NCBI RefSeq assembly: GCF_031583025.1
Contig: NZ_CP134062.1
Location: 1,426,001 to 1,490,000 of the forward strand
Source of the DNA: Mycobacterium sp. Z3061
GTDB lineage: Bacteria > Actinomycetota > Actinomycetes > Mycobacteriales > Mycobacteriaceae
Direction of reading: 5' to 3'
DNA: 64,000 nucleotides
Part shown: positions 42,401 to 55,652 of the stretch, in pieces
How positions within the stretch are numbered: position 1 is the stretch's first letter
Layout of the letters: each line of letters opens with the position of its first letter
Position numbers and translations under genes: made by a program
The notes under the pieces: generated by a model
The model's database searches: none
Seen by the model: the letters and a program-made list of their open reading frames with translations, nothing else
What the model was told of the DNA's origin: nothing

Positions 42401-43390
42401 ATGCCTGATCGATCGGCGCAGAAGCAGCAACGCGGCGGACGCCATCGCGATGACACCGCTGCCGGCAGGCACTTCCCGACCCCCCATCACCGCGTGGTAT
42501 TGGCAAGCCTAAGTGCCGGTGTCGTTGTCATGGCTGGCTACTGCGCGGTAGCAACCGATGCAACCAAAGGTCATGGCGGTGACCGCGTCGCACAGTCGGC
42601 CACGACATCACCCGGCGGCGCCTTGGCGCCGCAACCGACGCCCGTCCCGCAAGCATCCGCCCCCGCCTCCACCGACACTCTGGAAACCGACTTCGCCCAA
42701 TTGCGAGAAAGGATGCGCGGCAAGGTAGCGATCGCGATTAGCGCCGTGGGGGCAGATGCAAAAGCCAGGGTCCTCGGCGATTGGCCAGCAGGGCCGGCCT
42801 GGTCGACGATCAAAGTGCCATTAGCCATCGCCGTGCTGCGGGAAACAAACCAAACGGAAGTCAGCCAGAACATGGTCGCGGCGATCACCGACTCGGACAA
42901 CGCGGCAGCTGAATCGTTGTGGAGCAGCCTCGGCGAACCGTCGGTCGCTGCACAAAAAGTCGAGGCAGTCCTTCGCGAAACTGGGGATCAGACCGCGGTT
43001 CAATCGCGCAGAGTTCGACCGCCGTTTACTGCATTCGGCCAGACTATCTGGTCTCTGACCGCGCAGACTCGGTTCATATCTTCTGCAGTGTGCGATACCC
43101 GGAACGGGACGATCTTCGCGTTGATGGGACGCATTACTCCGGATCAGAGCTGGGGCCTCGGCAACATTTCAGGAGCCCGCTTCAAAGGTGGTTGGGGGCC
43201 GAAACCAACAGGCGAATACCTCGTCAGACAGATAGGCGTGATACCCACACCCGGGGGGATGACTGCCGTCTCGATGGCTGTTGAGCCTGCGTCGGGATCC
43301 CTGGCCCAAGGTACCGAGGAACTCAGCGACGTCGCCAGTTGGCTATTCGCTCACCGTGCACAGTTGCCCACCGGGGAGTGCAGCACCTGA
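42401..43390 (+). CDS. Membrane-anchored serine hydrolase of the beta-lactamase/PBP fold
   Basis: A 329-residue protein with an N-terminal membrane anchor (about 31-50, VVLASLSAGVVVMAGYCAVA) and a Pro/Ala/Thr-rich linker, then a periplasmic catalytic domain. Motifs of penicillin-recognising enzymes are visible: SxxK as STIK (Ser135-Lys138), SDN at 165-167, and KGGW as the third box. The acyl-serine mechanism is inferred from these. It could be a beta-lactamase-like hydrolase, an LppW-type protein or a D,D-peptidase relative; substrate is unknown. No clear Shine-Dalgarno precedes the ATG at 42401. It is convergent with the DUF2510 gene. Confidence 0.7.
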   Translation: MPDRSAQKQQRGGRHRDDTAAGRHFPTPHHRVVLASLSAGVVVMAGYCAVATDATKGHGGDRVAQSATTSPGGALAPQPTPVPQASAPASTDTLETDFAQLRERMRGKVAIAISAVGADAKARVLGDWPAGPAWSTIKVPLAIAVLRETNQTEVSQNMVAAITDSDNAAAESLWSSLGEPSVAAQKVEAVLRETGDQTAVQSRRVRPPFTAFGQTIWSLTAQTRFISSAVCDTRNGTIFALMGRITPDQSWGLGNISGARFKGGWGPKPTGEYLVRQIGVIPTPGGMTAVSMAVEPASGSLAQGTEELSDVASWLFAHRAQLPTGECST

Positions 43391-43406: not shown

Positions 43407-44501
43407 TCAATAGCTAGGGCCCGGCGGGCCAAAACTTGGATTGCTCGCCTGTGCCCGCCCCTGGATAAACGCGGCGAAGATTGCAGCCCCTGTCAAAACC
43501 AACGACAACACACAGGCGCCGATCAAGCCCACTCCTGGCGAAAAATCGTTGTGCGCTAGGCCGGGCGGATCGCCGAAGGTCCCCGCGACATCAACGATGT
43601 GGCTGGTGCAAATCAACCCTGTGACTCCGCCGAGAACCGCCACCGTAACAGCTATCAGCATGCGTTGCCTCACCCACAGGTAGGCGATCCCCGCGAGAAT
43701 CGCGATGATGCCCAATAGGAGCGCAATCCAGCCGGGATTTGTATTTTGTAGCGCATTAAGTTCGGGGGTCTCGATTTTGCCACTCATCGACGTTCCGTCG
43801 CCAGAAATTCTGACTGTCATGCTCGGTTTTCCAAGGCCGGGAAACGCTAAGGTTCTCGAACCGTACAGACCGTCATCGAATCTGCCGGCCGCACTTACCC
43901 GGCCCCACGGCAGGAACGAAGCAATGACCAAGGCGGCGCCGCACGCCGCGGTGACCAGTCCCACCACTCGGTCAGCGCCCTGCGCGATCCCGGCCCAAAG
44001 CCGCGGCGGTCGACCTGGCTGGTGTGGTGCCGCGAAGGCCCCGGAGGAGACCGGCGCAGCGGGAGTGCCGGCGGATCCATAGAGATGCGACGGGCCAGAA
44101 GGAGCGCCACCGGCCCCGGATGGATCGTAAGGTCCGTAGGCAGGGTAAGGGACGCTCGTTGGCGAGCTGAAACCGTACGGGTCCACGGGGGACGCCGTGT
44201 ACGGATACCCGGTTGCGTACTGGTCTGGGAAACCGGCACTTCCAGCCGAGGCAGCGGGGTAGGGGGCAGGGTAGCCGCTCGCGGGCTGCCCGAATGAGGT
44301 GTCATTGTCGGCATAGCTGGAAGACTGGGAATCTGCCGGTCCGGGCGAGTGAGGCCCGGTCGCGTCAGGCGAGGGACCACGCCCGGTGGGCGAGGAAGAC
44401 TTTCGCCGACGCTGCGGAGTCCAACCATTGCCGTCGAAGAACCGTTCAGCGCCTGAGCCATCTGGGTCGTCGTACCACCCTGGTGAGTGCGGCGTCGTCA
44501 T
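43407..44501 (-). CDS. DUF2510 membrane protein with four helices
   Basis: A 364-residue protein. The N-terminus (SPGWYDDPDGSGAERFFDGNGW) is a DUF2510 motif. A long Pro/Ser/Gly/Tyr-rich region follows, then four membrane helices, including VVGLVTAACGAALVIASFLPWG, ALLLGIIAILAGIAYLWV and ACVLSLVLTGAAIFAAFI (first cited approximately). The ATG at 44501 is chosen because GGGAGGG lies about 8 bases upstream and DUF2510 normally begins at residue 5-10; the frame itself is open to 44714. It is divergent from the VWA-PP2C-kinase operon and may be functionally linked to it. Confidence 0.8.
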   Translation of the reverse strand: MTTPHSPGWYDDPDGSGAERFFDGNGWTPQRRRKSSSPTGRGPSPDATGPHSPGPADSQSSSYADNDTSFGQPASGYPAPYPAASAGSAGFPDQYATGYPYTASPVDPYGFSSPTSVPYPAYGPYDPSGAGGAPSGPSHLYGSAGTPAAPVSSGAFAAPHQPGRPPRLWAGIAQGADRVVGLVTAACGAALVIASFLPWGRVSAAGRFDDGLYGSRTLAFPGLGKPSMTVRISGDGTSMSGKIETPELNALQNTNPGWIALLLGIIAILAGIAYLWVRQRMLIAVTVAVLGGVTGLICTSHIVDVAGTFGDPPGLAHNDFSPGVGLIGACVLSLVLTGAAIFAAFIQGRAQASNPSFGPPGPSY

Positions 44502-44830: not shown

Positions 44831-45496
44831 GTGGAGCCAAAAGGGTCGATCCTGCTCGTCTACTTCGTTGCCGACGAATCGGGATCGATGGGCAACAACA
44901 TCGGCGAACTGAACGAGGGGCTCGTCACACTCCAAGACGCGCTACAAAGACAACCGTTTGCTGCCGCTCGGGTGCGCTTCTCGGTGATCGGGTTCTCCGA
45001 TACAGCCTTCACCCACCTGGAAGCTGCAGACCTGCGAGAGACGACATGGTTGCCGTCTCTGGGTGCCAACGGGCTGACCTCCTACGCAGCTGCATTCCAA
45101 GAGCTCGAGTACCGTATATCCGTAGACATTCCCCACCTGAAGGCCAGCGGATACACCGTCCATCGGCCCGCCGTGTTCTTCCTGACCGACGGCCAACCGA
45201 ACTCGCGCGATAACTGGCGCGCAGCCCGGGAACGCTTGCTAGCACAACCCGCGGCGCCGAACATCATTGCTTTTGGAATCGGCGACGCCGATGCCGACAC
45301 CGTCGCCCAACTCGCCACCAAACAGCATTACGCCTTCAAATCGGCGCGTGGAGTGGACACCGGTGCCGCACTGTCAGAGTTCCTCACATCCTTGACGCAA
45401 TCAGTCATCAGCTCGGGACAGGCGTTCGCTGCTGGCAACGCAGAGCTGCAGTTTGACCGCCCAGAAGGCTTCACCCTGGCCGTCGACGTCGTCTAG
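44831..45496 (+). CDS. TerY-type von Willebrand factor A domain protein
   Basis: A 221-residue single VWA domain with a complete metal-ion-dependent adhesion site: DESGS (Asp15, Ser17, Ser19), the Thr in NGLTSY and the Asp in FFLTDGQPN. TerY-like VWA proteins act with a PP2C phosphatase and a Ser/Thr kinase in the TerY-P triad; exactly these two genes follow, the first after 5 bases. The GTG at 44831 places the first strand (ILLVYFVADES) at the normal position; an ATG at 44783 would add 16 residues. No signal peptide is present, so it is cytosolic. Confidence 0.85.
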   Translation: MEPKGSILLVYFVADESGSMGNNIGELNEGLVTLQDALQRQPFAAARVRFSVIGFSDTAFTHLEAADLRETTWLPSLGANGLTSYAAAFQELEYRISVDIPHLKASGYTVHRPAVFFLTDGQPNSRDNWRAARERLLAQPAAPNIIAFGIGDADADTVAQLATKQHYAFKSARGVDTGAALSEFLTSLTQSVISSGQAFAAGNAELQFDRPEGFTLAVDVV

Positions 45497-45501
45497 GGCT
45501 C

Positions 45502-46638
45502 ATGGCACGCTTTCGACGGGTCCGGCACCGCGTTGAGCCCGCGCACCAGGATTCGCTAACGAACGACTCACTCTCCGACGATCCGACTCAGCCGCTCGAC
45601 CTTCCTCAGAGCACGCCGGTCGACTCGCCGTTGGTCCAACAGTTCACCATCGCCAAGAGATCCGAAGCAGCAACCGTAGCGGAAGTCATCGGACCCCTCG
45701 CGATACCACAAATCACGGTAGGACCACCGTCTCCCTGCACAGAGCCGGAACCAATTGGTGCGCAATACCGTTCCTTCCCGTTCCGCCCGGATGTGGTCAT
45801 TGACGGGTGGTCAACCGATTCGATCACCGTTCGCGGTGTCTCCCAACGAGGACACCTACACCGCTACAACGGTGCACCACGTCAAGACGACTTCGCCATC
45901 CACCACGCATCAGGCGGTCGAGTCGTCATCCTTGTCGCAGATGGAATTTCGGGGGCGCGCCAATCACACATCGGCGCAAGCGCAGCCATCAAGCAGGCTG
46001 CGCGGTGGCTACAGGAACATCTCAATGACGATTCCGCACAGACCGATTGGCTGACACTGTTCAAGAACGTCGCCTGGGAACTCACCGAGCAGGCACAAAG
46101 CCTTCTGCAGCTCGCCGAACCTGACCCTCTGCGCGCTGAGCAAGAAATGGCCACCACTTTGGTATGCGGGATCATCGAGCCACGAGACCCGGGGCGGTCG
46201 CGTGCCTATGTTGTGGGCGTCGGCGACTCAAGCGCATGGCTACTTTCGCGGGGAGCATTCCGTCACCTCCTAGGTGGAAAACCCCTGCAAGACAGCGCCA
46301 TTACTACCTCATCGGTGGCCGGATTGCCTCGTCTGCCTGCTGAACTGACGCCGGTAGTTGTCGAATTCACCGACCGCGATGTGTTACTCATCGGCACCGA
46401 CGGCATCGGGGACCCCCTTGGTACCGGGCAAGGCGGAGTGGGGAACCTATTGCGAGCCGTGCTGAGCACCTCATCTCCGCCCTCGCTCATCGAGTTCGCC
46501 CACGCCGTCGACTTCAGCCGCGAAATGTTTGACGACGATAGGACTTTAGTAGCGGTTTGGTCAAAGCGACCCCCACCAGCGGTACCGTCACCGCAACGAC
46601 CAGGTGCTGACAGGAGGGTCGATGGCGCGTGCGGTTAA
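45502..46638 (+). CDS. PP2C-family protein phosphatase of the TerY-P triad
   Basis: A 378-residue PPM/PP2C phosphatase. A ~95-residue low-complexity N-terminal extension is followed by the catalytic domain with metal-binding acidic motifs: RQDDFA, VADGISG, GTDGIGDP and the C-terminal DDDRTLVAVW. The GVGDSSAWLL strand is also typical. It should remove phosphate from the partner kinase or its targets. Its 3' end overlaps the kinase start by 17 bases, so the two are translationally coupled. No membrane segment. Confidence 0.85.
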   Translation: MARFRRVRHRVEPAHQDSLTNDSLSDDPTQPLDLPQSTPVDSPLVQQFTIAKRSEAATVAEVIGPLAIPQITVGPPSPCTEPEPIGAQYRSFPFRPDVVIDGWSTDSITVRGVSQRGHLHRYNGAPRQDDFAIHHASGGRVVILVADGISGARQSHIGASAAIKQAARWLQEHLNDDSAQTDWLTLFKNVAWELTEQAQSLLQLAEPDPLRAEQEMATTLVCGIIEPRDPGRSRAYVVGVGDSSAWLLSRGAFRHLLGGKPLQDSAITTSSVAGLPRLPAELTPVVVEFTDRDVLLIGTDGIGDPLGTGQGGVGNLLRAVLSTSSPPSLIEFAHAVDFSREMFDDDRTLVAVWSKRPPPAVPSPQRPGADRRVDGACG

Positions 46639-48181
46639 GCAAGTCAGCGAACTGGGCGAACTGACCAAGATCGGTCAAGGTGGCCAGGGGGTGGTGTACC
46701 GAGCGCCGAACCTCAAGACCAAATTCACGTCATCCATGGTCTACAAGCAGTACAAGGCCAAGGCTCGCAACGAGATCGATTTCAGTGCCCTGGCTGCAAT
46801 GCCGGAACTCGTGGAGAAGTCTCTGACGTCTGACGATGGCGAACGACTCATCTCACTCGCGGCCTGGCCCTGCGAGCTCGTCGAAGAGAACGGGGCCCAA
46901 ACGGGTTTCGTTATGCCCGAAATTCCAGACGAATTCTTCATCCCGCTGACGACCCTCAAAGGGGTATCGAGAAACCTCGCCGAATTCCAGCACTTACTGA
47001 ACGCCGAATCGATCCTGCAGGCACGAGGCATCGACATCGATGACGTGCAACGCTACACACTGCTGCGCGAAGTAGCCTCCGGGCTCACCTTTCTGCACAG
47101 TAACGGCGTGTGCGTCGGTGACATCTCACCCAAAAACCTGCTGTTCTGTCTAGCGCCGCGAGCGAAGATCTACTTCATCGATTGTGACGCCATGCGGATT
47201 AACGGGGTATCGGCCCTACCGCAAGTCGAAACACCGGGCTGGGAAATTCCTTCGGGGGAGGAACCGGCCACTGTCTACTCCGACACCTACAAACTCGGCC
47301 TACTCGCGCTGCGACTGCTTGTCGGCGACCAGGATGTCAGGACGCCTCAACACATTCCGGCCACAGCGCCCAAAGTGCTTCGTGGCCTGATCACCGACAC
47401 CCTGGAACGCCCTACACACAAGCGACCGCTACCCGAGTCGTGGACCTACATTCTCGGACACGCCATCGAAGAAGCGCAGCACCGAAAGAAGACCGCCGCG
47501 CCTCCGAAACTGCCTCCTGTCGCCCAAACCCCGCCCCCACCCCAGCCTCCGCCTCACCGAGTGCCACAACAGTGGAACACCGCGGGAAGGCCCACTACAA
47601 GCGGACAGATGTCGCCTGCGGCTAAGGGTTCGATTCTGGCCGTCGTCGGCGGCCTTGCGATAGTTGTCGTCGCCCTGCTGGCGATCGGCAGCCAACGCGG
47701 GACCGACTCGGGGTCGCAGGCGCCCTCGAGTTCATATGCCTATCCCACCACGAGATACGGAGATTACGGCGGGTCCACGTCCTTTGCCCTATCGACTCCG
47801 TCGACCCGTCCCTCGCTTCCCTTGGGCACTCCGCCAGACGTACTGCACGGCGCCGACGGCAGCGGAGACTATGCCTGCAGCGGTGGGCATAGCCTTTACA
47901 CCAACGGCAGGTCCTACCTGGTCGCGCCCGCCACTCCCCGTGGGCCCCATTACACGTCCTGCGGGTTTGCCATCGCGGTAGGGCAGACCTACCTAGCGAC
48001 GGTCAATGATTGGCAATACCCGACGCAAATCAGCGTTCAAAGCCCGAAAGCGAACTGCACCAACACCCAGTGCGATGGCACCAAGTTCGTCATGCAATGC
48101 CGAATGGACGGCCCTTACGCCGCCATGTGGATTGAGTGCCGCGGCGGCAACGATGCGGTCGTCTACATTTTCGGCGGCTAA
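46622..48181 (+). CDS. Membrane Ser/Thr kinase of the TerY-P triad with extracellular Cys-rich domain
   Basis: A 519-residue divergent protein kinase. The glycine loop is GQGGQGVVYR, the ATP lysine is likely Lys42 (MVYKQYK), the catalytic loop is GDISPKN (Asp167) instead of HRDxKxxN, and the metal site is DCD (Asp187-Asp189) instead of DFG. These changes are typical of the TerY-P kinase group. A Pro-rich linker, one transmembrane helix (ILAVVGGLAIVVVALLAI) and a ~140-residue external domain with several Cys follow. The ATG at 46622 is preferred because AGGAGG lies just upstream; 46604 is the outer frame limit. The external domain suggests sensing at the envelope. Confidence 0.85.
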   Translation: MARAVKQVSELGELTKIGQGGQGVVYRAPNLKTKFTSSMVYKQYKAKARNEIDFSALAAMPELVEKSLTSDDGERLISLAAWPCELVEENGAQTGFVMPEIPDEFFIPLTTLKGVSRNLAEFQHLLNAESILQARGIDIDDVQRYTLLREVASGLTFLHSNGVCVGDISPKNLLFCLAPRAKIYFIDCDAMRINGVSALPQVETPGWEIPSGEEPATVYSDTYKLGLLALRLLVGDQDVRTPQHIPATAPKVLRGLITDTLERPTHKRPLPESWTYILGHAIEEAQHRKKTAAPPKLPPVAQTPPPPQPPPHRVPQQWNTAGRPTTSGQMSPAAKGSILAVVGGLAIVVVALLAIGSQRGTDSGSQAPSSSYAYPTTRYGDYGGSTSFALSTPSTRPSLPLGTPPDVLHGADGSGDYACSGGHSLYTNGRSYLVAPATPRGPHYTSCGFAIAVGQTYLATVNDWQYPTQISVQSPKANCTNTQCDGTKFVMQCRMDGPYAAMWIECRGGNDAVVYIFGG

Positions 48182-48329: not shown

Positions 48330-48815
48330 TCAGCGCATGGGTACTGGTATTGCACCAGGGCCAGCCGGATAAGGGAGAGGCACCAGGCCGTCGTTCCGGA
48401 GGGGGCTCAGCGCATACCCTGAATCCCCGGGAGCGTAGAACACAACCGGAACGCCGTTAGACGTTCGAGCAGATGTGAAGGTGCCGCCGCCTCCAAAAGT
48501 GCGCCACAAATTGCCCACGTCATTCATTGCCGCAGACTGTGTTGCGAATGTAGCAGCAAAGACGTTAGCCCCATTCGTCCGTGCGAAACAGGTACCAACC
48601 GCGGTCGCGTTCGGCGTGAACGAGTTAGAACCGAAGTGGTCAGAATAGGTTCCTGGCTGGCATACCAACGACGTCCAGTATTCGACTGAATCGGCGTACG
48701 CCGCCGGGACCCACCCCACAGTCAGTGGGACGGCCGTAATTACTGTCAACGATAAGGCCGCTCGCGCGACCGTCGCTACGCAAGTCCGCGACTTAGTTAC
48801 GGCAGCCCAGTGCAT
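48330..48815 (-). CDS. Small secreted protein of unknown function
   Basis: A 161-residue exported protein. The signal peptide (ARAALSLTVITAVPLTVGW, cleavage near AAYA) precedes a domain with Cys in SLVCQPG and GTCFART and a Gly/Thr-rich middle. The ATG at 48815 is chosen because GGAGG lies 8 bases upstream; the frame is open to 49181 but the longer form would bury the signal peptide. The C-terminus is Pro-rich. No family recognised. It faces away from the PE_PGRS gene and converges with the kinase gene. Confidence 0.7.
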   Translation of the reverse strand: MHWAAVTKSRTCVATVARAALSLTVITAVPLTVGWVPAAYADSVEYWTSLVCQPGTYSDHFGSNSFTPNATAVGTCFARTNGANVFAATFATQSAAMNDVGNLWRTFGGGGTFTSARTSNGVPVVFYAPGDSGYALSPLRNDGLVPLPYPAGPGAIPVPMR

Positions 48816-49498
48816 TGCGCGCACCTCCATGTCGATGCAGATAATTGTGGTCGCATCGCACTGGCAGGGCAACACGCCTCTGAGATGCAACGATGAACCG
48901 AGTGCTCGACCGACCAGCTGGCGTTCGCCGACGATCATGACGCTGTCGTTTTGAGAACTCGTCGTCGGACGCTGTGTGGAGCGGCCAGCTGGATCCACTG
49001 AAAGTCTGGCCGGAGGGACGAGTCGGGTCCCACTCCGCAGCCCGACAAACGACGCCATCGCAGCGCTGACAGCAACAATGACGCTCGGAGCGAGAACCCT
49101 TCGCTCCCAGGCTATTTCCCGCGCTAGGCACCGTTGGTAGGTGCGTGACGTGCGATCAACCTGGCCAACGCCGCTGGTCATTTACCGACCCCTCTCCACG
49201 ACATGGGAGACACATCGTGGCGTCCACAGTCGAGGTCGTCGTCCGGCTCAAAGACCGGGATGGATGAGGGGATGCACCTGCGCCCGGATGGACCGGCGGC
49301 CATTGGTTATTGAGTGCGATGTGGACGTGAACCTTTGAATTCTCGAGTAGTAGCAGTAACTTTCACCCATGCGTTTGACATTCGGGTAGCATTCCGCGGT
49401 TGGGCGCGTGTCCAAGTATCGCCATTCAAGCGGCGTACGCCGCAGGAAGAGGGACCGACTCGTGGTCTGACACGTCCCGGTCTAGTTGGGGGAACTCA
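48816..49498. other. Non-coding stretch upstream of PE_PGRS gene
   Basis: About 680 bases between divergent genes. Frames on both strands exist but none has a recognisable domain or credible start. A TTGACA hexamer at 49375-49380 has no properly spaced -10, although TAGCAT follows six bases later. Promoters of the PE_PGRS gene and the secreted protein must lie here. Confidence 0.4.
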
Positions 49499-51790
49499 AT
49501 GTCCTACGTCTACGCATTCCCAGACTCCTTTGCTGCCGCGGCAGCCAACGTATCGAGAATTGGCTCCTCGTTGAGCACCGCAAACCAAGCTGCTGCAAAC
49601 ACCACCGCCCAGGTGGTTTCCGCGGCAGCTGATGAAGTATCGGAGGCGGTCGCCGCGCTTTTTTCTCGGCATGGCCAGGCATATCAGTCGTTGTGTATCG
49701 ACGCGGCGGCGTTTCATGAACGTTTCCTGCATACGCTGAACAGCAGCGCATCGGCGTACGCCGGTGCCGAGGCCGCTAGCGTCGAGCAACTCCTTCTCGA
49801 CGTGATCAACGCGCCGACCAACGCACTGTTAGGCCGTCCGCTGATCGGCGACGGTGTCAACGGAGCACCCGGTTCGGGCGCCAACGGCGGCGCGGGTGGA
49901 ATTCTGTGGGGCAATGGCGGCAATGGCGGGTCCGGGGCGCCTGGTCAGGCGGGCGGTCGCGGTGGCGACGCCGGCCTTTTCGGCAATGGTGGCAACGGGG
50001 GTGTGGGCGGCACGGGCGTGACGGGTGCGTCAGGTATGCGCGGCGGCGACGGCGGTATCGGTGGTGTCGGCGGCAAGGGCGGGTGGTTGCTCGGCAGCGG
50101 TGGGGCAGGGGGAGTTGGCGGGGCCGGTGGCATCGGGGGCGTGGGGGTGGCCGATGTCGGCGCGGGCGCCGGTTCTGGTGGAAACGGCGGCGACGGCGGT
50201 AGAGGGGGCAGCGGCGGGCTTGGCTCTCCGTTCGGTCAAGTGGGGGCCACCGGGGCCGGTGGCGCCGGTGGTGCCGGTGGAGTCGGTGGGGCGAGCCCCA
50301 TCGGTGTTGGTGGAACCGGAGGTACTGGCGGCAATGGGTACGCCGGCGGCAACGGGTTCACCAGCGGTGCCGGCGGTGTGGGCGGCGATGGAGGCATGGG
50401 GTTGACCGGCGGCACTGGAGGCGATGGAGGTGCGGCCCTCGAGGCTGGACCCGGCAACGCTGTCGCCGGCAACGGCGGTGCCGGCGGCAGAGGTGTGATC
50501 GGCGGCGTCGGAGGGGCCGGCGGCACGGCGGTGACCCAGGGCGGCGGGACAGCTTATGGAGGTGCCGGCGGAGCTGGCGGCCTTGGCAGCGGCCAGAACA
50601 TTCCCGGCTACGGCGGTATTGGGGGCGACGCCTACGCCTACGGAAGCGGTGACGCCCTTGGCGGTGCCGGAGGACTAGGGAAGACCGGTGGTATCGGCGG
50701 GGCTGGTTATACCTACGGAAGCGGGAACGCATCAGGTGGAACGGGAGGGTCGGGTAACGGCGAACTCGTCGGGGGTGCGAACTCGGGTGTCGGCGGCAAG
50801 GGCGGCGCCGCCTATGCCCATGGCAGTGGAAACGCAGGCGGCGGCCAGGGCGGTACCGGCGGAGGCACAGGTGGTATGGGCGGGACCGGCTCGACCTTTG
50901 GGCAGGGAACCGCGACTGGCGGGATCGGCGGTAGCGGCCACAATTTCGCAAACGGCGACGGGGGGGATGCCATCGCATACGGCAGCGGAAATGCCCGCGG
51001 CGGCAACGCCACTGGCGGTGCGGACGGCGGAGATGCCTATAACTACGGAACCGGTAATGCCACGGGTGGCAATGGCGGTGACGGTGGCGGCAGGGGCGGC
51101 GGTGATGGCGGAAATGCGTTCGTCGCTAAAGACAGCTCAATGACCTCTGGTGGTCCGGGCAACGCCATCGGAGGAAACGGCGGCAGCGGCTCCTTTAACG
51201 GCGGGAAGGGTGGCAGCGGGTACGCCGCCGGTGCTGGTGATGCGACCGGCGGCAACGGCGGCAACGCTAGAGTCGCGGGCGCCGGCGGTGAGGCACGCAA
51301 CTCCGGAACGGGCAACGCCACCGGTGGGACGGGCGGTAACGGCACCACCGTTTTCAGCGCTGGCAATGGCGGCAACGGAGGGAATGCCTACGTCGCTACG
51401 GACGGATCATTCACCTCCGGCGGTCCCGGCAACGCCATCGGCGGTGCGGGCGGTACGGGCACCAATATCGGCGGCAACGGGGGTGACGCAATCACCGCAG
51501 GCACCGGCAACGCCCACGGCGGCGCGGGCGGCGCGGGTGTCGATGGCCTTACAGGCAGCAACGGAGGGTCCGGCGGTACGGGGACTGCCTTCGGAGGGGG
51601 AAAGGGTGTCGGTGGCAACGGCGGCAACGGCGGCAACGGCGCGACCGGCAGAGGCGGCGATGGTGGCGACGGCGGCAACGCCGCTGCCCTTGATCTGATC
51701 AATGCCACTGCCGGTAAGGGCGGTAGCCGCGGCATCGGCGCACCAGATGGGCTGCCCGGCGCTGACGGGACAGCATCGACAGTCCCCTGA
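49499..51790 (+). CDS. PE_PGRS family protein
   Basis: A 763-residue PE_PGRS protein. The PE domain (about 1-95) begins [22 protein letters not shown], so the usual Pro-Glu is Pro-Asp; the type VII secretion signal YxxxE is present as YAGAE. A linker with [16 protein letters not shown] precedes a long Gly-Gly-X PGRS domain with interspersed GxGNAxGG units. Such proteins are exported through ESX-5 and exposed at the surface. The ATG at 49499 follows TTGGGGGA and gives the canonical N-terminus; the frame is open back to 49400. The PPE partner is not adjacent. Confidence 0.93.
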
Positions 51791-53487: not shown

Positions 53488-55191
53488 TCAGCACGTTGGT
53501 TTGTACTGTGGGCCAGCACCCGGGACTGAGGTGACATATGCGACTGCCGATTCCAACTCGTAGGGACCGCGGGCGTCTGCGAAAGCAAGGGTTTGAAAAG
53601 TTCTTTGTTGACCGGTTTGAACGCAATCCACGACTACATCGGACACAACGGTGCCGGCCGACGTTTTCACAAGTGCTACGACGATCACGTTGAGCGGCCC
53701 GTCCCTATCAAGGGTTAGGCGTCCGGTCGCGGATGGGCCAGAAAAGCCGGTGTCGGCCCGGACGGCCGCATCGGTCAAAGCCACCTGTGGTGGATTCACG
53801 GTGTCCCACTGCAGCCATTTTCCAAGAATTGTCAGTTGGACTGAGCCGACGGTCTTTCCATCCGGCACGATGACGCCGGCCAGTCCGTATTCGCCGCCGG
53901 GTGGAAGTTGGTAGATGGTGCTGGCCATTGCACCCGGTAGGCCTCCTTGCCCCTCGGTGCCCAACAGCGCACCATGTTCATCGAGAATCGCCAACTCGAA
54001 CGGGGATCGAACCAATCCCACTTCGGTATTGGGATTTCGGAACCGTACGTCCAAAAAGCGACCAACTTGGGTGAAGCTGACGACAACGTCGTGTGAGGCT
54101 CCCGGCGCGGCGCTGGCGGACGTCCGCGGGCTGCCAGTATGCGGGGCGATGGTCAGGTTCGAACGGCCGCTACTGGGCATTGGCTGTTTGGACTCATCTC
54201 GGGGAATTGCGGTGTTGCGCAGAAAAAGCACCAAACAGAGAACGGCAACAGTCGCGGTGATCCCGGCAGCCCAAATGACCCGTTTGCCCTTTTGCGACCA
54301 TCTTGATGGGACTGCAACGTTTTCGGCCGCTGGCGCAGGGGCAGTCGGGGCAGCATAGGTTCCGAAAGGCGTGGTGGGTTGGCCCAAAGCGCCTCGTGCG
54401 GCAGCGGCGAGTTCTTTGGCGCTCGAGTAGCGCCCATTGACGTCTTTCGCCATGCCTTTCGCGACGACCTCGTCGAAGGCTGGATTGATGTCTGGTTGGG
54501 CAATTGACGGGCGCGGCGGCGGATCGGCGAGATGCGCAGCGGCTTGGCTTTCTAGGGTGTCTCCGGGAAAGGGGCGGTTGCCTGTCAAGCACTCATAGAG
54601 GACGCAGGCTAGTGCATAGATGTCCGCGCGGTGGTCGACTTCCCCGGCGCGGAATCGTTCCGGGGCCATGTAATGCCAGGATCCGATCATTGTCCCGGAT
54701 TGGGTCAAGCTGGTCTGTTCGGCGCCGACGGCGAGACCGAAGTCAATCAGGTAGGCATCATCGTCCTCATCGAGCAATATGTTGGACGGTTTGACGTCGC
54801 GGTGCACCAAACCAGCCTTGTGAGCGGCCTGCAAGGCTTTAGCGACCTGCTCGATGATCCGCACTGCCCGCTCGACTGGCAATCGGCCACCGGCAAGGAC
54901 GGCTTGCAAATCCCGACCCTCGATCAGCCGCATATCCACGTACAGCTGGCCGTCAATCTCACCGTAGTTGTGGATTGGGATGACATGCTTGTTACTCAAC
55001 TGCGCCGCGGTGTCTGCCTCGCGGCGGAACCTCTGCACGAAAGAGTCATTCCCAGCCAAGTGGGCGGGGAGCAGTTTGATTGCGACAACGCGGTGGTTAG
55101 CTGCCGAGTCATAGGCGCGCCAGACTTCCCCCATACCGCCACGCCCCAGCAACTCGATAAGGCGGTACCGGCCGAATGGCTTCCCTTCCAT
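53488..55191 (-). CDS. Transmembrane Ser/Thr protein kinase (PknD/PknF type N-terminus)
   Basis: A 567-residue mycobacterial-type STPK. The kinase domain (about 8-270) has GRGGMGEVWRA, Lys39, HRDVKPSN (Asp132), DFGLA and a PERF activation segment with SGTMIGSWHYMAPERF. A Pro-rich juxtamembrane part, a single membrane helix (about 307-326) and a ~240-residue external domain of unknown fold follow, with Cys near the C-terminus. The external domain is not an NHL propeller, so it is not PknD itself. The ATG at 55191 gives MEGKPFGRYRLIELLG, the normal family start. Neighbours give no obvious substrate. Confidence 0.9.
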   Translation of the reverse strand: MEGKPFGRYRLIELLGRGGMGEVWRAYDSAANHRVVAIKLLPAHLAGNDSFVQRFRREADTAAQLSNKHVIPIHNYGEIDGQLYVDMRLIEGRDLQAVLAGGRLPVERAVRIIEQVAKALQAAHKAGLVHRDVKPSNILLDEDDDAYLIDFGLAVGAEQTSLTQSGTMIGSWHYMAPERFRAGEVDHRADIYALACVLYECLTGNRPFPGDTLESQAAAHLADPPPRPSIAQPDINPAFDEVVAKGMAKDVNGRYSSAKELAAAARGALGQPTTPFGTYAAPTAPAPAAENVAVPSRWSQKGKRVIWAAGITATVAVLCLVLFLRNTAIPRDESKQPMPSSGRSNLTIAPHTGSPRTSASAAPGASHDVVVSFTQVGRFLDVRFRNPNTEVGLVRSPFELAILDEHGALLGTEGQGGLPGAMASTIYQLPPGGEYGLAGVIVPDGKTVGSVQLTILGKWLQWDTVNPPQVALTDAAVRADTGFSGPSATGRLTLDRDGPLNVIVVALVKTSAGTVVSDVVVDCVQTGQQRTFQTLAFADARGPYELESAVAYVTSVPGAGPQYKPTC

Positions 55192-55652
55192 CGACCAACC
55201 ATAAGCAGCCGACCGAAACCTACCTTGCACCAGCCCCGCACCGGTCTCGCGCTGGCACGGGATTAATGACGGATGCTTCGCGGTAACGAAATGCGATACA
55301 CGCGTCGGTATACGTACGCGCTGAGCCTCGAACGGCGGCTTCGACTTTCACACCCCTCCGCACATATACAGTCAGCCGTTTGGCTCAACGGCCGCAGCCT
55401 CGCTGACTAGATGTGCGCTTCGTTTGTGCACAGTGCACCGCTGTTGGTGTGATTGGTGTTGGCCCGTTGCCGCCGGGAGCATCCCACCCCGGCGGCCATC
55501 CTCAGGTTTCACCAAAAGCGCACTTCCTTGAGGAACATTCGGATTGCGTGTTGTAGTGCCCTACTCCAGGCGGTGAACGCGAGGGCCCGCTTGGCGTTGG
55601 CGGTGAAAGAGAACACCTGGCGGGGGCGCAGCTCAGTGCGCGCTTCTCGGCG
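55192..55652. other. Intergenic region, no gene called
   Basis: About 460 bases upstream of the kinase. A plus-strand frame (55453-55731) overlaps the next gene and has no recognisable domain, so it was not called. The kinase promoter must lie near 55192-55300. Confidence 0.35.

Follow-up and report, generated by a model that had tools for sequence, protein, structure and literature searches.

A TerY-type triad with a membrane-spanning kinase and exchangeable outer domains in Mycobacterium sp. Z3061

The TerY protein of enterobacterial plasmids is part of tellurite-resistance loci. Here we analyse a three-gene locus of Mycobacterium sp. Z3061, at positions 44831-48181 of a 64,000-nucleotide stretch of contig NZ_CP134062.1 (hereafter the window), which encodes a TerY-like von Willebrand factor A (VWA) protein, a PP2C phosphatase and a kinase that combines one transmembrane (TM) helix with a six-cysteine outer domain. 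Systems that have these three components in common with the window, known as TerY-P, are reported to be phage-protective (PMC7699616, PMC10889362). As described in PMC11090510, the kinase of anti-phage TerY-P ends in an oligonucleotide/oligosaccharide-binding (OB) fold and that of CoCoNuT-linked TerY-P carries a zinc ribbon, whereas the kinase of the window carries a TM helix and an outer domain; the same source puts forward the hypothesis that TerY-P senses metal.

E. coli likewise has YegL as VWA protein, PphC (YegK) as PP2C phosphatase and YegI as divergent membrane kinase, and the order of the three genes is that of the window. YegI is described as a membrane-bound kinase with serine autophosphorylation and as a target of dephosphorylation by PphC (PMC13232886); it shares with the window kinase a V-G-D catalytic loop and a D-x-D metal motif. 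Unlike the window kinase, however, it contains a pair of TM segments and lacks a clear outer domain, and the E. coli system has one kinase only. The receptor serine/threonine protein kinases (STPKs) of mycobacteria (PknB/PknH type) also have a single TM helix and an outer domain, and both PknH_C and the class A domain described below are common to the two groups. They belong to another kinase lineage, however, whereas the window kinase has a dedicated VWA protein and PP2C phosphatase alongside. Beyond the original prediction, which had proposed an anti-phage TerY-P triad with an unusual membrane-spanning kinase, our analysis reveals that outer domains are swapped among triad kinases and that their classes are linked to neighbouring enzymes.

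The three proteins and their placement

The first gene (44831..45496, forward strand, GTG start at 44831) encodes a TerY-like VWA protein of 221 amino acids (PF00092, E 7.8e-7). The predicted metal ion-dependent adhesion site (MIDAS), with its DESGS motif, is present on the sequence (D15, S17, S19, T83 and D120), and its residues are invariant across 17 aligned homologues. The protein is 30.6% identical over 92% to the terY product of an enterobacterial plasmid (E 4e-12); one such plasmid record annotates terY and metal resistance, whereas the homologue in the window lies instead with a phosphatase and a kinase. Profile comparison of the VWA protein by hhalign gave a probability of 98.6 with E. 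coli YegL, against a weak 21.7 with the VWA proteins of STK_OB-type triads. Matches to it are found in 2290 of 72,556 plasmid records. A Streptomyces plasmid (NZ_CP107870.1, 24934-25605) encodes a VWA protein 46.9% identical to that of the window, and from this match the triad may be mobile on plasmids.

After a spacing of 5 bases (45497-45501) follows a PP2C-type serine/threonine phosphatase of 378 amino acids (45502..46638, forward strand), the identity of which was borne out by PF13672 (E 5.3e-18, residues 116-310). Its N-terminus is poorly conserved, and the acidic residues D129, D147, D242, D300, D345 and D346 are invariant in 17 homologues. The kinase gene (46622..48181, forward strand, ATG at 46622) overlaps the phosphatase gene by 17 bases (46622-46638); both the spacing and the overlap are as originally predicted.

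From motifs, Pfam, hydropathy and an AlphaFold2 (AF2) model, the 519-residue product of the third gene is a divergent serine/threonine kinase with a TM helix and an outer domain. PF00069 is reached only under its cut-off (28.8 versus 31.7 bits), and the catalytic loop GDISPKN and the metal motif DCD, both confirmed, stand in place of the HRD and DFG motifs of Hanks-type kinases. The kinase domain spans residues 1-296 (46622..47509), with boundaries taken from the AF2 model and from profile boundaries on a copy from the same species (L060), whose kinase is 98% identical. Residues 1-300 are modelled as a protein-kinase fold with a predicted local distance difference test (pLDDT) value of 96.2, and K42, D167, N172 and D187 are invariant in 44 aligned rows. 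A single TM segment (residues 338-356, 47633..47689, mean hydropathy 2.93; here and throughout, TM helices were assigned by hydropathy, without a dedicated TM predictor) is followed by 163 residues with six cysteines (positions 419-506), in agreement with the cysteine-rich C-terminal part foreseen for this protein. No CxxC pair occurs in the full-length kinase. The six-cysteine outer domain, here termed class A (residues 400-519, 47819..48178), was delimited on an alignment of 20 sequences and an AF2 model (pLDDT 80.3, predicted template modelling score 0.78). It matches no Pfam family at E 0.01 and no Protein Data Bank entry by fold (E 0.001) or by sequence profile (E 0.1). Hydropathy, cysteine content and kinship of the outer domains with PknH_C suggest that it would be located outside the cell.

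Regarding family placement, the window kinase aligns with YegI at an hhalign probability of 96.5 (profile positions 19-284), compared with a weak 10.5 for the kinases of STK_OB-type triads. In a quick tree of 40 rows, YegI falls together with the triad kinases, divergent ones included (Shimodaira-Hasegawa-like approximate likelihood ratio test, SH-aLRT, 96), HRD kinases are separate (87) and STK_OB-type kinases make up a third group (100); YegI and several other rows sit on long branches. The window kinase thus groups with YegI and other triad kinases, apart from ordinary and receptor STPKs. When the three proteins were compared with PADLOC models, the kinase reached STK_OB at only E 0.048; the VWA protein and the phosphatase had no PADLOC match. 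The TerY-P label stands in the broad sense of a TerY/PP2C/kinase triad, through homology to terY, YegL and YegI, but not in that of the published anti-phage TerY-P, since neither OB-fold nor zinc ribbon was found. As judged from sequence, the window holds a broad TerY triad, of the YegL-YegI branch for its VWA protein and kinase, and not an anti-phage TerY-P as defined. The kinase does possess the TM helix that was regarded as unusual; membrane association as such is not unique, YegI being described as membrane-bound (PMC13232886).

Distribution of the triad and exchange of outer domains

A kinase search of 396 genomes of the genus gave matches at E < 1e-60 in 20, own genome included, a distribution that fits the predicted accessory placement of the locus. 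At E 0.001, 317 of the genomes match, and most of the other listed hits span just the outer domain or the catalytic region common to kinases. Across the phylum, a kinase profile at E 1e-15 found 5 of 396 genomes (own included). Scanning genomes of named species yielded 48 kinase loci, which span Mycobacterium and allied genera, Nocardia, Tsukamurella, Skermania, Streptomyces, Kitasatospora, Micromonospora, Actinospica and others, one being a Thermoanaerobacterales metagenome-assembled genome. A set of 56 loci was assembled from 47 of these (L107, a weak match at E 2e-4, being excluded), the window and eight others. VWA protein, phosphatase and kinase occur together in 42 of the 56, in 36 of them in the order VWA-PP2C-kinase on one strand. 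Because the three genes are conserved and adjacent in so many loci, the arrangement is more than chance, and their predicted co-conservation holds. Within the mycobacterial set the whole triad is present in 19/29 loci, and several of the ten incomplete ones are extra kinases of genomes with a triad elsewhere or cuts at contig ends. Not all loci are independent: the window and L060 are from the same species, and L064 and L073 are both named M. interjectum.

Some departures from the common layout were also observed. Nine loci of a Streptomyces/Micromonospora type (L090, L091, L093, L094, L097, L098, L099, L102 and L104) have the triad within a longer operon, preceded by a gene of mostly about 260 amino acids, a gene of about 770 amino acids with a faint nSTAND-NTPase match and a second VWA gene of about 600 amino acids; a Crp-type regulator lies near most of the nine. 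Among more divergent triads of the genus, that of L125 has a soluble-looking kinase and that of L057 another small cysteine-containing outer domain.

The external domain was surveyed on 43 mycobacterial and 33 other triad-type kinases, all scoring at least 100 bits. A TM helix is present in 66/76; of the ten without one, five are fragments or lie at contig ends. It is found in 39 of the 43 mycobacterial kinases (the other four are fragments or cut by the contig) and in 27 of the 33 from other taxa, where one of the six exceptions is at a contig end. Outer domains no shorter than 60 amino acids occur in 37 of the 43 mycobacterial kinases, in 11 classes. Most kinases have a single TM helix, those of L063 and L069 several. 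The outer domains of 66 kinases fall into 21 unrelated classes, or 19 without two classes known only from kinases below 100 bits. Pfam names four of ten tested outer domains, namely LppP/LprE, DUF4189, a YNCE-like propeller and PknH_C (E 1.5e-35), the family to which the outer part of a mycobacterial receptor kinase belongs. On a tree of 63 kinase domains, from which stretches shorter than 200 residues had been excluded, all class labels together require 32 changes. The nine classes with at least two rows require 21, compared with a minimum of 8 and a shuffled mean of 31.8, and therefore the classes are clustered yet often exchanged.

Tandem kinases provide a further view of this exchange. In L061, L064, L066, L071 and L073 the kinase halves of the tandem copies are 99-100% identical in protein, and 99.1-100% identical in DNA over 936-1182 bases, whereas the outer halves are only 23-32% identical. 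The DNA of the kinase-half copies of L064, L066 and L073 is 99.2-99.7% identical within a genome against 92-96% between genomes; the copies of L046 are less alike (95% and 79%). Gene conversion that spares the outer half would be the simplest reading of these pairs, and independent recent duplications in which outer halves were exchanged would be a less simple one. VWA copies, complete or partial, occur several times in locus L046 (5327-14890), together with three kinases, and in G364 and the tandem-kinase loci L041 and L073 some kinase copies are interrupted and persist as pieces beside intact ones.

Outer-domain classes, neighbouring enzymes and genomic context

Upstream of the triad, at 42401..43390 on the forward strand, lies a gene whose product has the penicillin-recognising fold (PF13354, E 3.3e-6, 27 bits versus a cut-off of 22), a hydrophobic N-terminal stretch and the motifs S-T-I-K, S-D-N and K-G-G. 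We propose this serine hydrolase, which is probably exported, as the partner of the outer domain. Among 14 family members, the window's included, SxxK and SDN are kept in all 13 that cover them and KGG in 14/14. Assignment of this protein as a class A beta-lactamase was rejected, its 28.1 bits comparing with an NCBIfam cut-off of 200.

The hydrolase, searched like the other enzymes with profiles built from members found in these triad loci, is present in 16/16 mycobacterial loci with a class A kinase and in 0/13 without one (Fisher p 1.5e-8, uncorrected for descent). Across 48 loci, class A occurs in 19 and the hydrolase in 17, both together in 17, so that the hydrolase never appears without class A. 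The 48-locus tree excluded L057, where a hydrolase lies 3.5 kb from the divergent triad but is immediately adjacent to a different gene, one that carries a class A domain. Comparable linkage is seen for other classes: a glycoside hydrolase family 3 (GH3) enzyme (PF00933, E 1.5e-83) abuts class B kinases in 7/8, and a PF00144 enzyme abuts all four propeller-class kinases.

The hydrolase is not restricted to triads, being present in 198 of the 396 genus genomes. We hand-picked 20 hydrolase loci outside triads, mostly from the top of the list and excluding any for which a neighbouring class A gene was already known. In 17 of them a class A domain is adjacent, 16 times on an HRD-type STPK. The pair thus serves two kinase lineages, which argues for function over hitchhiking. 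From the opposite direction, of 18 class A genes outside triads, six adjoin a hydrolase gene within 1 kb. In L134, L135 and L147, the class A outer domain is carried by a short protein that lacks a kinase domain and is encoded next to this serine hydrolase.

As to the remaining surroundings of the triad, the predicted divergent neighbour is confirmed as a DUF2510 protein (43407..44501, reverse strand; PF10708, E 3.9e-9), and DUF2510-like genes, identified by motif pattern only, are close to several other triads. Downstream lie an open reading frame of 283 amino acids (48333-49181, reverse strand), for which a Pfam search gave no match, and a gene for a PE_PGRS-like glycine-rich protein (49499-51790, forward strand); proteins of the PE_PGRS type are typical of slow-growing mycobacteria. 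A second STPK, of ordinary receptor type with its own C-terminal part (53491-55194, reverse strand; PF00069, E 3.7e-42), is encoded 5 kb downstream of the triad. A wider survey covered 135 of 143 listed neighbours from 14 triad loci. Phage integrases occur in four of them and DUF2510 in four, and some triad loci lie in mobile DNA.

A proposed receptor switch and its alternatives

Gene content, homology, conserved active sites, the hydropathy pattern, the exchange of outer domains, the near-identical tandem halves and the linkage of classes to enzymes make it, in our view, fairly probable that the triad is a phosphorylation switch of the YegL-PphC-YegI type in which the kinase has turned into a receptor with exchangeable envelope sensors. 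The outer domain would read an envelope signal, with cell-wall material and the state of the partner serine hydrolase as the likeliest candidates, and the signal would pass through the single TM helix to the cytoplasmic kinase, which would phosphorylate itself and its targets. The phosphatase would reset the kinase, giving a reversible switch as for YegI and PphC, with the TerY-like VWA protein as a putative scaffold or target that depends on metal. One VWA/PP2C pair of a relative could be fed by several kinases that differ in their outer domains, and gene conversion would keep their kinase halves alike, so that every input leads to a common output. The fuller version of this proposal, on which our confidence is evenly divided, is a multi-input receptor system with one VWA/PP2C core and several membrane kinases, whose cytoplasmic halves would be kept identical through gene conversion, whose outer halves are exchanged and whose classes would each have an exported enzyme of cell-wall type. 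The window would then contain the six-cysteine receptor with its penicillin-recognising serine hydrolase, a pair that would also serve ordinary STPKs.

Several results weigh against such a receptor switch. In the tree-independent pair test, six pairs bear on class A and the hydrolase, of which five or six agree and none is opposite (p 0.031-0.0625, median 0.0625), and only three bear on class B and GH3 (p 0.25-0.5); this test therefore leaves room for linkage of outer class and enzyme through common descent. At 12 of the 18 class A loci outside triads the hydrolase was not seen in the fetched stretch, so the pairing is not obligatory, and the two Tsukamurella triads show none either. Streptomyces and Micromonospora triads have a Crp-type regulator and other genes nearby instead of class-linked enzymes, and hydropathy shows no TM helix in the intact kinases of L090, L105, L123 and L125. 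Finally, the phosphatase resembles E. coli PphC only weakly (hhalign probability 13.5) and is closer to the PP2C proteins of STK_OB-type triads (80.9).

This last similarity, together with the same gene order in STK_OB-type loci, the three components shared with phage-protective TerY-P and a sporadic distribution, would fit an anti-phage TerY-P whose kinase is incidentally membrane-anchored and senses phage entry. We nevertheless consider that reading unlikely, given the lack of a detected OB-fold or zinc ribbon (STK_OB reaching only E 0.048) and a linkage of outer classes to wall-type enzymes that it would not lead one to expect. STK_OB itself, at E 1e-10, occurs in 3/296 genomes of the phylum, none of this genus; the triads of these three genomes were the ones used for the STK_OB-type comparisons above. 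The 135 neighbours do match 71 PADLOC families at E 1e-10, a CBASS (cyclic oligonucleotide-based antiphage signalling system) cyclase and a 4TM effector among them, but the 25 families shown match one member each, and none of five flanking proteins of the window has a PADLOC match at this threshold. The missing matches of the window VWA protein and phosphatase count for little here: E. coli YegL and PphC have no PADLOC match either, and therefore this library cannot decide on the triad.

Homology to TerY, an intact MIDAS and the metal-sensing hypothesis for TerY-P (PMC11090510) would agree with a stress or metal (tellurite-type) response switch whose outer domains are accessory anchors and not sensors. 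The outer domains are, however, conserved within each class, exchanged as units and include PknH_C, a diversity that anchors need less, and we regard this alternative as improbable. Least credible, and in our judgement very improbable, is the reading that the operon is fortuitous and its kinase an ordinary receptor STPK of mycobacteria: the class A domain is indeed common to HRD-type receptor kinases, but the kinase half groups with YegI and the triad kinases, apart from the HRD kinases, at the support given above, and the triad is kept in 42/56 loci.

TerY-type triads are known mainly as defence- or stress-linked switches whose input is unclear. In the receptor switch proposed here, that input seems to be encoded in the genome, as an outer domain and an adjoining likely partner enzyme, which would offer a direct handle on what triads sense. 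Our findings link TerY-type triads to mycobacterial receptor kinases, and the equality of the kinase halves alongside differing sensors is an unusual indication, open to testing, that many inputs feed a single output.

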